NCBI GenBank assembly: GCA_024222295.1
Contig: JAAEPF010000017.1
Span: 310,001 to 374,000 of the forward strand
Source of the DNA: Actinomycetes bacterium
GTDB taxonomy: Bacteria; Actinomycetota; Acidimicrobiia; Acidimicrobiales; Microtrichaceae
Length of the DNA: 64,000 nt
Direction: 5' to 3'
Below are positions 39,620 through 45,690 of the stretch, in pieces. A program made the translations under genes and the position numbers. Under the pieces are notes generated by a model that ran no database searches, was not told where the DNA came from, and was given only the letters and a program-made list of their open reading frames with translations. Every line of letters starts with the position of its first letter. The first letter of the stretch is position 1.

Positions 39620-41335
39620 ATGCCAGTTCCGGGTTGCATGAACTCAGCGCCGCACAAGGATTTCGAGCTGGAAGTCGTTTCCGGCGAGTGGCCCGACGAC
39701 ATCAGCGGCGACGTGGTGTGGTCGAGCCCGAACAACTCCCACAACCTGCCGTACGCGATCTTCGACTGGGGTGCGATCGTTCGCCTGTCGCTCGAGCCCG
39801 GCAAGCGAGGCGCCGCGGATGGTCGCTTCAGATGGGACCACAAGGTCATCCAGAGCCCCGGAAAGCGCCTGTATGACCGTCACTCGGACCAGTTCAGCAC
39901 CGGCGCGCTCGGTTGGGTCTCGCCCTTCGGTGCTCCCAACTGCGCCAACACCGCGCCGCTGCCCTGGGGAGACCGCCTCTACACCACGTGGGACGCCGGC
40001 CGTCCGGTCGAGCTGGATCCGGTGACCATGGAGTTCATCGCAGAGGTCGGCCACGTCGACTCCTGGGGTGGCCAGTCCATGGACATGCCCGGCATCCACC
40101 CGTTCCTGTTCTCCTCGGCGCACCCGGTCGCCGATCCCGAGCGCCACTGCCTGTGGACCGTGAAGATGAGCCCCGTGTTCGAACCGACGTTCGGCATGCA
40201 GCCCGCCGTCGTGCAGTGGGACCGCGACGGCACCACCGTGAAGTACTGGCCACTTGACGGCATCAGCTTCGGTGGCTCCGTGCACACGCTCAGCCAGACC
40301 CGCGACTGGGTGATCCTGTGTGACTCCGGCAACTTCAAGGCCGACCCCGACGAGATGCTCGGCGGCGAGCGCACCGTGACCACCGACGACGAGGTGCCCG
40401 TGTGGCTGGTTCGCAAGGACGCCCTCGAAGGGCTGCCCTCGGGCACTCCGATCAAGCCCCACTGCTTCACCATGTCGCCGCCCAACGGGCACTACTACGC
40501 CCGCTACGACGACACCGACGGCATCTCGGTGGTCTGGGAGGGCATGGACCTCATGGACCTCGCCCTCTACATGAAGCCCGACGACAACGACGTCAACGGC
40601 AACCCCGTCGACCCCGCCGCGATCGGCCTCTACAACATGGCGATGGCACCCGAGACGATCACAGAGATCACCTTCGAGCCTGAGACCGGCAAGGTGCTCG
40701 AGCAGGGCATCTACAAGGAGGACTGGACCTTCAACCTCCAGCTCTCCGGCATGGACTGGAGCCTCGAAGGCCTCAACAAGCCGTCCCTGCACCACGTCAC
40801 CTACCAGGGCTGCCGGCCCGGCAACATCTCCGAGCGCGCAGCCAAGATGTACGAGGGCCGCATCGACCTCGACCAGGTCCGCGAGGAGACCCCGGGCGTC
40901 CTTGCCACCTTCGAGCGGGGCAGCATGGAGCTCAAGAGCCGCTGGGAGTACAAGGACACCAGCGACCACATCACCTCGCCCACCTTCGCGCCGCGCGATG
41001 CCGGCAAGCCGACCTCTGACACCTACGAGGGCACGAACGCCGGTGGCCACGACGGCTACGTCGTGCAGCCGGTCCTCTCCGACGGAGGCATCCGCGTCGA
41101 CCTGTTCGACGCAGCCAACGTGGGCGCCGGCCCGATCGCCACGCTGAAGGGCACCAACAACGAGACCGTGCCGGTGATCCTCCACTCGGCCTGGATGCCG
41201 CAGCTGTCGGGCCGTGCCGATGCCGACCGCCTGCGATTCGCCGACGAACTCAGCGACGAGGCGATGGCGACCGTGCCCCAGGAGTTCCACTCCTCGATCC
41301 ACGAGGTCGCCGCGGAGTGTGACGAGCTGCTCTGA
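39620..41335 (+). CDS. carotenoid oxygenase family protein (571 aa)
   Basis: A 571-residue beta-propeller dioxygenase of the carotenoid-cleavage/lignostilbene dioxygenase family. Candidate iron-binding His residues occur at the four family positions: PGIHPFLFSSAHP, GSVHTLSQ, IKPHCFTM and near the end VILHSAWMP. These enzymes cleave polyene or stilbene double bonds with O2. It is longer than usual (about 480-500), with extra sequence around residues 300-440. GGGGGA precedes ATG 39620. Divergence from a Rieske operon suggests breakdown of a plant- or algal-derived polyene or phenylpropanoid, as inference. Confidence 0.8.
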   Translation: MPVPGCMNSAPHKDFELEVVSGEWPDDISGDVVWSSPNNSHNLPYAIFDWGAIVRLSLEPGKRGAADGRFRWDHKVIQSPGKRLYDRHSDQFSTGALGWVSPFGAPNCANTAPLPWGDRLYTTWDAGRPVELDPVTMEFIAEVGHVDSWGGQSMDMPGIHPFLFSSAHPVADPERHCLWTVKMSPVFEPTFGMQPAVVQWDRDGTTVKYWPLDGISFGGSVHTLSQTRDWVILCDSGNFKADPDEMLGGERTVTTDDEVPVWLVRKDALEGLPSGTPIKPHCFTMSPPNGHYYARYDDTDGISVVWEGMDLMDLALYMKPDDNDVNGNPVDPAAIGLYNMAMAPETITEITFEPETGKVLEQGIYKEDWTFNLQLSGMDWSLEGLNKPSLHHVTYQGCRPGNISERAAKMYEGRIDLDQVREETPGVLATFERGSMELKSRWEYKDTSDHITSPTFAPRDAGKPTSDTYEGTNAGGHDGYVVQPVLSDGGIRVDLFDAANVGAGPIATLKGTNNETVPVILHSAWMPQLSGRADADRLRFADELSDEAMATVPQEFHSSIHEVAAECDELL

Positions 41336-41404
41336 CCTGGCGGCCCGAGGGGCCAATTCAGCAGATCCTGCAACCGATTGCCCCTGTGCGGTGTTCTATT
41401 GGGT

Positions 41405-41962
41405 GTGAGCACGCGCGTGGGCCGACGACTGGCCACCGACCTCGAAGGCGGGTTCGTCGACCTTGTCGACGCCCACGGGTCCATGGTGTTGTCGATCGGT
41501 GCGCGCCTGGGTGATCCCCAGGCTGCCGAGGACGTGCTGCAGGACACGTTCCTGCGGGCGTGGCGTGCCTTCGAGTCCGGCAGCACGGATCCCACGGACG
41601 TCGACCTGCGGCCCTGGCTAGCGACCATTGCGCTCAACCTGGTGCGCAACGAGAGACGCCGGCGCGGCCGCAAGCCCGTTGGTGAACTGTCCGATGACAC
41701 TGCGCGTGCGATCGGGTCCGACGGCCCAGGTCCCGAGCAAGAGGCCATGGAGTCGATCGGTGGCAGTCCGCTCGTGGCGGCGCTGCGCTCCCTGCCCGAC
41801 GTCCAGCGTGAAGCCGTGGTGTTGCGCCATGTCGTCGGCCTGAGCACTGGCGAAACGGCCGAGGCCATGGATTGCCCACAGGGAACCCTGAAGTCCCACC
41901 TCTCGCGGGGTCTGGCCGACCTGCGGACCCAACTTGCCCACCAGCAGACGGAGGAACCATGA
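41405..41962 (+). CDS. ECF-type RNA polymerase sigma factor
   Basis: A 185-residue sigma-70 family protein with only regions 2 and 4. Region 2 is seen in LGDPQAAEDVLQDTFLRAWRAF, with RPWLATIALNLVRNERRRR behind it. Region 4 is REAVVLRHVVGLSTGETAEAM followed by GTLKSHLSRGLADLR, the helix-turn-helix that reads the -35 element. The usual anti-sigma partner is missing; instead the gene overlaps (ATGA) an alkylguanine transferase with an Ada zinc domain. This sigma factor may thus answer to DNA alkylation. GTG 41405 is the probable start. Confidence 0.87.
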   Translation: MSTRVGRRLATDLEGGFVDLVDAHGSMVLSIGARLGDPQAAEDVLQDTFLRAWRAFESGSTDPTDVDLRPWLATIALNLVRNERRRRGRKPVGELSDDTARAIGSDGPGPEQEAMESIGGSPLVAALRSLPDVQREAVVLRHVVGLSTGETAEAMDCPQGTLKSHLSRGLADLRTQLAHQQTEEP

Positions 41963-42735
41963 GCAACAGCGATCCGGTACTCGAAGGGCTGCGGGGCCTT
42001 GCGGTGGCCATGACGGACGAGCTGCGCGACTCGGTGCTTGACGGTGTCGGTCTGGCCGACAACCACTGCGTGCTCGACAGCGAGATCGGCGAGGTCCGCG
42101 TGGCCTTCAACCGACACGGGGTCTCGTTCCTGAGCGACGCCACCGACCCCGAGGAATTCGCCCGGCGCTTCGCTGACCGACTTGGTGGCCGACCGCTGGG
42201 TGCAGAGGCGTCGCCTCCGAAGGGATTGACGGCAGCACTGCGCACCGGACGCGGGCGTGCCGTGGACGCCGACCTGCGGACCATGTCCGACTTCCAGCGG
42301 CTCGTGCTGCAGGCGGCGCGGGGCATCCCGGTGGGGGAGGTGCGCCCGTATTCGTGGGTAGCCCAGCGGATCGGGCGACCGAATGCCGTCCGAGCGGTCG
42401 GCTCGGCGCTCGGGGCCAACCCGGTTCCGATCCTGATTCCCTGCCACCGGGTGATCCGTTCCGATGGTGCTACCGGGCAGTACCTGTTCGGCAGCGACAC
42501 CAAGGACGCACTCCTGCGCGACGAGGGCGCGAACCTCGACGAGGTCCGGGACCTGCACGCACGCGGCTACCGCTACGTGGGCAGCGACAGGACCGGCATC
42601 TTCTGTGACCCGAGCTGCCACTCGGCGCGTCGCATCACCGAGTCGGACCGTGTCCTGCTGCGCGGCCAGGATGCCGCAGAGTCAGCCGGCATGCGTCCCT
42701 GCAAGCACTGCCAGCCCGTTCCCGCCGCGGCATAG
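41959..42735 (+). CDS. O6-alkylguanine-DNA alkyltransferase with C-terminal Ada zinc domain
   Basis: A 258-residue fusion. Residues 35-100 form the N-terminal MGMT-like region, 108-195 the alkyltransferase domain with active-site PCHRV (Cys162) and arginine finger NAVRAVGSAL. Residues 204-253 form an Ada-type zinc domain, YVGSDRTGIFCDPSC with ligands Cys216, Cys220, Cys248 and Cys251. In Ada the zinc domain, which takes methyl groups from phosphotriesters, is N-terminal; here the order is reversed and the AraC helix-turn-helix is absent. The ATG overlaps the sigma factor stop, so it may act as a methylation-sensitive partner of that sigma factor. Confidence 0.87.
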   Translation: MSNSDPVLEGLRGLAVAMTDELRDSVLDGVGLADNHCVLDSEIGEVRVAFNRHGVSFLSDATDPEEFARRFADRLGGRPLGAEASPPKGLTAALRTGRGRAVDADLRTMSDFQRLVLQAARGIPVGEVRPYSWVAQRIGRPNAVRAVGSALGANPVPILIPCHRVIRSDGATGQYLFGSDTKDALLRDEGANLDEVRDLHARGYRYVGSDRTGIFCDPSCHSARRITESDRVLLRGQDAAESAGMRPCKHCQPVPAAA

Positions 42736-44232: not shown

Positions 44233-45690
44233 TCAGCTGCCGAGCTTCAACCCGGGCATCCAGGAGCCGTGGAAGCCCTCGGGTACCCGCTGGGGCATCT
44301 GGATGCGGGCAACCGGGCCGGCGGCGAGGTCGCCTGCGGACAGGATGATCAGTTCTGCGGCGTAGTTGACCTTGTCGTGCATGAAGCCCATCACGTACCC
44401 GTCTTCCTCGCGGTCCGAGGCCGGGTTGGGTGCGTAGGTGAACTCGGTGACGTCGCCACGGCCGGCCACGGAGAACACGTCTTCTTCGCCGGTTTCGAAG
44501 TCGAATCGCACCACCCGGTTCATGAGGTCGGGGCGGGTGCGCTCGAGGCCCATCTCGGTGCCGAGCATGTAGGCGTATCGGTAGTCCCGGCCCATCCTGT
44601 CGGGGTGCACGATCGGGAACTCGACGTTGCGGTCGTGCACCTGCTCGTTTCGCACGTCGCCGCCGGCCGCCAGGGGGATCACGTAGCGATTCATGCGGGC
44701 GATCGGTCCGCCGCCGTCCTCCGCTGCCACGTCATCCTCCACCGAGTCGGCACGGCAGCCGTCGATCACGATCTCGCCGCCGCGCTCGTAGGCGTTCGAG
44801 AAGTGGAAGACCCACCCGAGGTCGGCTTCGAACCACTTCGCCTCGGAGGCGCCGCCGTCGCGGGGCACCACTATGAACTGGGCGCCGTTCTCGGGTCGCC
44901 ATGTCATGGCCGGCCCGCCGTGCTGGATGGCGTGCATCACGTCCCAGACCGCCGGGGCGTAGAGGAACACCGCGTAGTTCTCGGTGATCATGAAGTCGTG
45001 CATCATCACCGGTGCCGGTACCTCGATCTCCTCCTTCACCACGAGGCGGCCCGAGGCGTCGACCTTGTAGTAGGTGAGAAACGGTGGCAGCGGCCGGTAG
45101 GCGAAGCCGAACATCTCACCGGTGTGCGTGTCGATGTGCGGGTGTGCGGTGAAGGCACCCTTGAGCTGGCCGTCGAAGTTGTACTCGCCCACCGTGTCGA
45201 GCGAAGCGGTGATCTCGGTGGGCTTGCCGGCCTCGTAGAGCGCCAGGATCTTCTCCGCGTGGCGCACCACGTGGATGTTGGCCATGTTCTTGCCACGGCC
45301 GACGCGCTCCATGGCCTCCTCGTCGGGCGGGTTGACGTCCTGCATGCCACCCCACACCGCGTGGCCCTTCTCGCGCTCGTAGAGCAGGCCCTTGCCGAGG
45401 ATCCACCGGTTGCGGTAGCTGGCGACACCATCCTGCAGGCCGACTGCGTGGATCATCCCGTCGCCGTCGAACAGGTGGTAGCGCCCCCGTGGCTCGAACT
45501 GCTGGTTGGAGCCATTGCGCATGTAGGTGCCGTCGAGCTCGGTGGGAATCCGGCCTTCGATGACTTCGCATCGGTCGACGGTGAGCTCGGTGGTGATCGG
45601 GATCATGTTCCCGCTCAGGTACGGATTCTCGCCGATCTGTTCCCAGTCGAGGTCTGTAGTCGGCTCTACCGGTGTCGCCTGGTCTGTCAT
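44233..45690 (-). CDS. carotenoid oxygenase family protein (485 aa)
   Basis: A 485-residue carotenoid-cleavage/lignostilbene-dioxygenase protein of normal family length. The four iron-binding His are visible in AFTAHPHID, VMMHDFMI, WVFHFSNAYE and, at the C-terminus, GFHGSWMP. The opening GRIPTELDGTYMRNGSN and FDGDGMIH are also characteristic. It would split a polyene, apocarotenoid or stilbene into two aldehydes. GAGGGTGAG precedes ATG 45690. It heads the operon with the DMT transporter and the decarboxylase-like protein, a compact uptake-and-cleavage unit by inference. Confidence 0.9.
   Translation of the reverse strand: MTDQATPVEPTTDLDWEQIGENPYLSGNMIPITTELTVDRCEVIEGRIPTELDGTYMRNGSNQQFEPRGRYHLFDGDGMIHAVGLQDGVASYRNRWILGKGLLYEREKGHAVWGGMQDVNPPDEEAMERVGRGKNMANIHVVRHAEKILALYEAGKPTEITASLDTVGEYNFDGQLKGAFTAHPHIDTHTGEMFGFAYRPLPPFLTYYKVDASGRLVVKEEIEVPAPVMMHDFMITENYAVFLYAPAVWDVMHAIQHGGPAMTWRPENGAQFIVVPRDGGASEAKWFEADLGWVFHFSNAYERGGEIVIDGCRADSVEDDVAAEDGGGPIARMNRYVIPLAAGGDVRNEQVHDRNVEFPIVHPDRMGRDYRYAYMLGTEMGLERTRPDLMNRVVRFDFETGEEDVFSVAGRGDVTEFTYAPNPASDREEDGYVMGFMHDKVNYAAELIILSAGDLAAGPVARIQMPQRVPEGFHGSWMPGLKLGS

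Follow-up and report, generated by a model that had tools for sequence, protein, structure and literature searches.

The window, by which we mean the whole 64,000-nucleotide stretch of DNA analysed, carries two overlapping genes on its forward strand. The first (41405–41962; GTG start, TGA stop at 41960–41962) encodes a protein of 185 residues, close to the approximately 200 expected of an ECF sigma factor, in which Pfam finds regions 2 and 4 above cut-off (Sigma70_r2, E 3.7e-13; Sigma70_r4_2, E 1.3e-13). The second (41959–42735) encodes a 258-residue protein, the partner, which consists of an N-terminal element, an alkyltransferase and an Ada-type zinc domain. Its ATG at 41959 overlaps the sigma stop codon (ATGA), and the partner is therefore, as would be expected of a functional anti-sigma factor, adjacent to and probably co-transcribed with its sigma gene. 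A longer sigma protein starting at TTG (41378) is unlikely, because this codon lies inside the predicted promoter described below. The pair is flanked upstream by a carotenoid oxygenase gene on the same strand and downstream by a gene of the carboxymuconolactone-decarboxylase family on the opposite strand; Pfam finds no sigma regulator in either, and thus no regulator-like gene lies beside the pair. Two carotenoid-oxygenase (RPE65 family) genes are present near the operon, at 39620–41335 and 44233–45690, and the one directly upstream is very divergent (84 versus 428 bits).

Pfam assigns partner residues 111–190 (42289–42528) to the DNA-binding and catalytic domain of MGMT-type alkyltransferases (DNA_binding_1, E 6.2e-29), and PDB sequence matches link this domain to the C-terminal domain of Ada (1sfe) and to human AGT. 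As in other O6-alkylguanine transferases, an arginine finger and an acceptor cysteine within PCHRV are present; residue alignment places them at R145 and C162 (codon 42442–42444), roles that we take over from known alkyltransferases. The Ada-type Cys4 zinc domain follows at residues 197–253 (42547–42717; Ada_Zn_binding, E 1.2e-10), with cysteines C216, C220, C248 and C251. In the PDB, residues 196–255 match residues 18–76 of E. coli Ada (N-Ada) in 1adn; the matched stretches differ by one in length, so that the alignment, known by its end points, contains a gap. If the gap falls between the two cysteine pairs, C216 and C220 correspond to Ada C38 and C42, and C248 and C251 to Ada C69 and C72. 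On this alignment C216 (codon 42604–42606) is probably the counterpart of Ada C38. All five cysteines are found where the earlier note had placed them, with the zinc site C-terminal to Cys162 in PCHRV, and the reading frames and Pfam matches agree in every detail with its description of an ECF sigma gene overlapping a 258-residue protein by ATGA. An AlphaFold model of the partner, built from a two-row alignment, was set aside (mean pLDDT 49).

Both E. coli Ada and the partner join an Ada-type Cys4 zinc domain and an O6-methylguanine transferase in one protein, and the partner would, like Ada, be a damage sensor that boosts its own gene. It differs from Ada in that the zinc domain is C-terminal rather than first, in that Pfam finds no AraC-type helix-turn-helix (HTH), and in that a separate sigma factor is encoded in the operon. 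In Bacillus subtilis, AdaA and AdaB spread the Ada functions differently over proteins; AdaA keeps the AraC HTH and there is no sigma factor. The proposal that a separate sigma factor takes the place of the missing Ada HTH needs qualifying: the alkyltransferase domain itself binds DNA, so that this function did not merely pass to the sigma factor. No known anti-sigma domain was found in the partner by Pfam, and none of 58 proteins, some of them partial, contains HxxxCxxC, which we take to be the zinc motif of ZAS anti-sigma factors. The ZAS proteins ChrR and RshA, as far as the available part of a review describes them (PMC8999054), are likewise cytoplasmic partners encoded beside a sigma gene and use cysteine/zinc chemistry as a switch; the window's partner differs in consisting of an alkyltransferase and an Ada zinc domain, without HxxxCxxC, and its signal would be DNA methylation rather than oxidation.

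We then asked how far this arrangement extends, since the earlier note had called for its conservation to be checked. Profile searches covering 397 genomes of the window's order, 396 of its phylum and, for a further phylum member, 394 from that member's class, together with one named genome locus and plasmid records, yielded 55 loci with the alkyltransferase-then-zinc architecture. A sigma gene lies upstream in 54 of these, the window included, and the pair is thus conserved far beyond close relatives, from the order to Streptomyces, with the partner in the place of the anti-sigma gene and translational overlap, as that note had it. Carriers number at least 15/397, 28/396 and 6/394 genomes (the window's genome belongs to the first two sets), and include Pseudonocardia dioxanivorans, Rubrobacter radiotolerans, Nonomuraea gerenzanensis and Streptomyces. 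One row, L091, repeats L083 (R. radiotolerans; a contig of 149,806 bases in either case) and was left out of the 55; L093 and L096 are near copies. Two loose matches to the zinc pattern that have no sigma gene, L020 and L170, were not counted among the zinc loci, the zinc match of L020 lying upstream of the transferase. Three distant alkyltransferases were found in viral contigs, none with a sigma match. We conclude that the arrangement is real, widespread though sparse, and specific.

The spacing of the two genes was a 4-nt overlap in 30 of 42 pairs, and ranged from −11 to +28 in the others; this count takes in L045, which has no zinc domain, and leaves out L047 and L048. At L048 the partner gene looks frame-broken downstream of its sigma gene, and the C-terminal part alone was scored; at L206 the sigma gene is again upstream of the partner. 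The single exception to sigma linkage, L047/L180 in genome G332, is a zinc-domain alkyltransferase with neither a sigma gene nor the N-terminal element, and is possibly a natural case of loss. Four sigma-linked members (L045, L203, L204 and L205) lack the zinc domain while retaining the transferase residues, sigma gene and promoter, from which it follows that the pairing can do without the zinc domain.

In the 46 standard sigma-linked zinc proteins, R145, C162, H163, E189 and the four zinc cysteines are kept without exception (46/46). Because these residues are retained, both repair chemistries, on O6-methylguanine and on methylphosphotriesters, look intact at the sequence level in these proteins. 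When seven Streptomyces-type proteins are added, all five cysteines are kept in 53/53 of those scored. The zinc protein is the sole Ada_Zn match (E 0.001) in 36 of 42 carrier genomes, a second match occurring within long open frames in the other six; misses in this count are possible because the genomes are drafts. That most carriers have no other Ada_Zn protein fits replacement of an Ada-type sensor. In E. coli, Ada is known to become active once the cysteine of its zinc site is methylated, and one could suppose that the partner likewise is inert until Cys216 is methylated, whereupon it helps the sigma factor or holoenzyme to start the operon, touching both sigma and DNA. The presence of the corresponding cysteine in 53/53 proteins and the lack of another Ada_Zn match in the window's genome speak for such a co-activator; the missing AraC-type HTH and the zinc-less members, which still have sigma and promoter, speak against it, as does the structure of the promoter region.

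Eight nucleotides before the sigma start lies a predicted ECF promoter, TGCAACC-N14-GGTGTTC (41369–41396, forward strand), identified as a conserved motif. A relaxed form of this motif was present upstream of the sigma gene in 24/25 loci of a first set, 14/14 of a second and 13/18 Rubrobacter-like loci, and in 0/34 sigma genes beside plain alkyltransferases. In 200 first-order Markov shuffles the maxima for these four sets were 2, 1, 2 and 2, values that test chance and not the choice of pattern, because the sequences, those of the second set among them, had already been viewed when the promoter patterns were drawn up. Having a conserved ECF-type −35/−10 element just before its sigma gene, as autoregulated ECF operons do, the pair probably switches itself on, and we infer that the window's sigma factor recognizes the TGCAACC/GGTGTTC promoter. 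Upstream of the −35 block, no position between −60 and −4 exceeded 0.17 bit (48 rows), and nothing there thus points to an Ada-box-like operator in a constant position. A co-activator would be expected to fit poorly with this lack of a conserved operator beside the promoter, and we consider it distinctly unlikely that the partner acts in that way.

The exact promoter pattern has a single match in the window's genome, the pair's own promoter. Allowing up to two mismatches gave 53 sites (10 for a control pattern), and among the 30 whose context was examined no convincing second target was found; the coding test applied to these loose sites is crude, as real promoters also overlap long frames. 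In 22 genomes a strict pattern (GCAACC-N13..15-GGTGTT) matched 43 sites, against 12 for the reversed control, and 11 of the 43 were the sigma genes' own; in the remaining 11 genomes the promoter of the sigma gene thus escaped the strict pattern. Further strict-pattern sites, each no more than 10 nt from a potential start, occur at L133, L110, L128 and L135. The one at L133 (near 1532) precedes the ATG of a zinc-ribbon-like ORF by 5 nt and marks a possible second target in genome G108. Most simply read, the sigma factor serves chiefly its own operon, although a looser regulon is possible.

Alkyltransferases of a simpler kind are also found next to sigma genes. Among 76 contrast loci, picked non-randomly from search hits and including one duplicate row (L011 and L161 are the same place), nearly all encode relatives without a zinc domain, and a sigma gene lies upstream in 34; set beside this figure, the 54 of 55 found for the zinc architecture exceeds what chance would give. 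This second family, in which a sigma gene stands beside a plain alkyltransferase, comprises L009–L012, L026, L090 and 28 of the 38 loci L141–L178. In the sigma tree its members form one clade (33 rows, support 100/98) that excludes the window's sigma factor; the zinc-type sigmas, with those of Streptomyces and one zinc-less member, make up 48 rows, two of them the same Rubrobacter gene, with moderate support (87/86). Sigma clade thus agrees with partner type. A promoter of the form CTCAC-N12..17-CGTT/CGTC precedes 25/34 plain loci, and 0/25, 2/14 and 1/18 loci in the three zinc-type sets, so that the window's sigma factor differs from the sigmas of the plain alkyltransferases found here in both clade and promoter.

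The plain pairs may be ECF122, a group for which 6-O-methylguanine DNA methyltransferases in the gene neighbourhood and an unknown mechanism are listed (Casas-Pastor 2021, via the available part of PMC8999054). The window pair resembles that group, with whose description alone it was compared, in that an alkyltransferase gene stands beside an ECF sigma gene; the description in PMC8999054, in the part available, mentions no zinc domain, whereas the window's partner carries one. The earlier note had known of no description of the arrangement. This holds for the zinc-bearing form, for which we found none, but the linkage of alkyltransferases to sigma factors is already in print as ECF122 (PMC8999054, as far as available). 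Beyond that remark we found no account of the zinc-domain fusion, its promoter or its mechanism in the open-licence literature.

An alternative is that the sigma factor obeys some other signal, or its own transcription alone, and that the repair protein is simply its main target and has no regulatory role. The linkage of zinc-less alkyltransferases to sigma genes in 34/76 loci would be accommodated by this explanation, as would the listing of the ECF122 association under unknown mechanism in the accessible text of the review (PMC8999054). Similarly, in Corynebacterium glutamicum, cg0186 is upregulated on overexpression of sigH (cg0876), according to the part of the report available (PMC4510997), an example of an alkyltransferase in a sigma response without any fusion. 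Set against this is the observation that neither of the window's flanking genes is a regulator by Pfam, together with features of the partner to which we now turn.

Approximately residues 1–39 of the partner (41959–42075) form an N-terminal element, in which relatives show a pattern like LxxLxxxxPxxLxxRV; we regard this element as a candidate sigma contact. A profile was trained on 42 linked proteins; of 15 others that are linked (L091, one of these, duplicates a training row), 14 scored 8.6–40.6 bits and the last, L095, −3. Sigma-less relatives, L047 included, gave at most 6.7 bits or no score in 17/17 cases, and plain linked proteins at most 9.5 bits in 20/20, so that the ranges touch, the lowest linked score (8.6, L094) being below the highest plain linked one. 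The element therefore goes with sigma linkage, a correlation rather than independent evidence, which has to be read with the greater distance of the sigma-less relatives in mind. Were the repair protein a mere target, this association would not be expected, nor would the sole zinc protein without a sigma gene, L047, also be expected to be without the element.

The Streptomyces-type loci bear on the same question. In their partners R145 is kept in 0/7, the four zinc cysteines and C162 in 7/7, and in 7/7 (L093–L096, L201, L202 and L206) a separate alkyltransferase gene follows. At L206 the R145 position is a gap and the N-terminal half of the transferase is unrecognized. What is constant across partner variants is the sigma gene and, L095 excepted, the N-terminal element. 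That Streptomyces keeps a partner without the arginine finger despite having a separate alkyltransferase next door argues against a partner with no regulatory role, and, taking the evidence together, we think it unlikely that the partner is a target alone. At L095 (7350–8693), on a plasmid of Streptomyces sp. NBC_00212, a 448-residue ORF joins sigma region 4, the alkyltransferase and the Ada zinc domain, followed by the separate alkyltransferase, with a VlmB-like gene and a PLP decarboxylase nearby. This natural fusion may have decayed, because region 2 was undetected at E 0.01 and the N-terminal element scores −3.

Several Streptomyces modules lie within gene clusters. At L096/L217, genes for metK, metF, an adenylosuccinate-lyase family protein, an FAD/NAD(P)-binding protein and an adenylate-forming enzyme are found beside the module, and L093 and L094 have the same genes as far as their stretches reach. 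Of this set, the 11 kb around L201 (L212) contain the adenylate-forming gene alone, and the 19.9 kb around L202 (L213) contain none. Genes of these kinds, those near L095 included, are typical of products with an N–N bond or azoxy group, and DNA alkylators are known among such products. The Streptomyces modules would on this basis serve self-protection in clusters whose products may alkylate DNA, an interpretation to which L213 lends no support.

The conserved pairing of sigma factor and repair protein suggests that the repair protein itself signals DNA damage to the sigma factor. In our view the best explanation, to which we would give a probability of about 0.5, is a self-contained alkylation-response operon in which the partner, as alkylation sensor, gates its own sigma factor. 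Using the TGCAACC/GGTGTTC promoter, the sigma factor would chiefly transcribe the two genes of its own operon. The partner would repair O6-methylguanine through Cys162 and DNA methylphosphotriesters through zinc-bound Cys216, in each case by irreversible self-methylation. In the unmethylated protein, the N-terminal part would keep the sigma factor bound; methylation of Cys216, and probably also of Cys162, would loosen this grip and free the sigma factor, which would then direct synthesis of new repair protein. Once the damage had been removed, partner left unmethylated would capture the sigma factor again.

That the partner acts as a brake is a logical argument: a sigma factor that transcribes its own gene needs one, and the partner is the sole candidate in the operon. 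The same argument, and it is argument only, tells against a partner without regulatory role, as an unrestrained, self-promoted sigma factor would lock on. We infer repair activity, binding of partner to sigma, inhibition in the ground state and methylation as the trigger; the two genes could instead be co-inherited as neighbours for simple co-expression. A fuller version, in which a suicidal repair protein is the anti-sigma factor and releases its sigma by self-methylation, and in which Streptomyces has split it into a repair-impaired sensor and an enzyme that in several loci are self-protecting, is one we hold tentatively, at somewhat short of even odds.

To our knowledge, how actinobacteria without an Ada/AraC regulator sense alkylation is largely an open question. 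For this question the module supplies an answer that can be put to the test: its promoter is defined, two cysteines of the partner are candidate switches that accept methyl groups, and one element is a candidate for contact with sigma. Alkyltransferase-linked ECF sigma factors are known in print as an association (PMC8999054, in the part available); for the zinc-bearing, autoregulated form we found no description in the open-licence literature searched. If our reading is true, the chemistry of DNA damage would directly control a sigma factor here, and a possible mechanism would be at hand for sigma factors linked to alkyltransferases. The module also draws attention to genes that may confer self-protection within natural-product clusters, where the products may be DNA alkylators.
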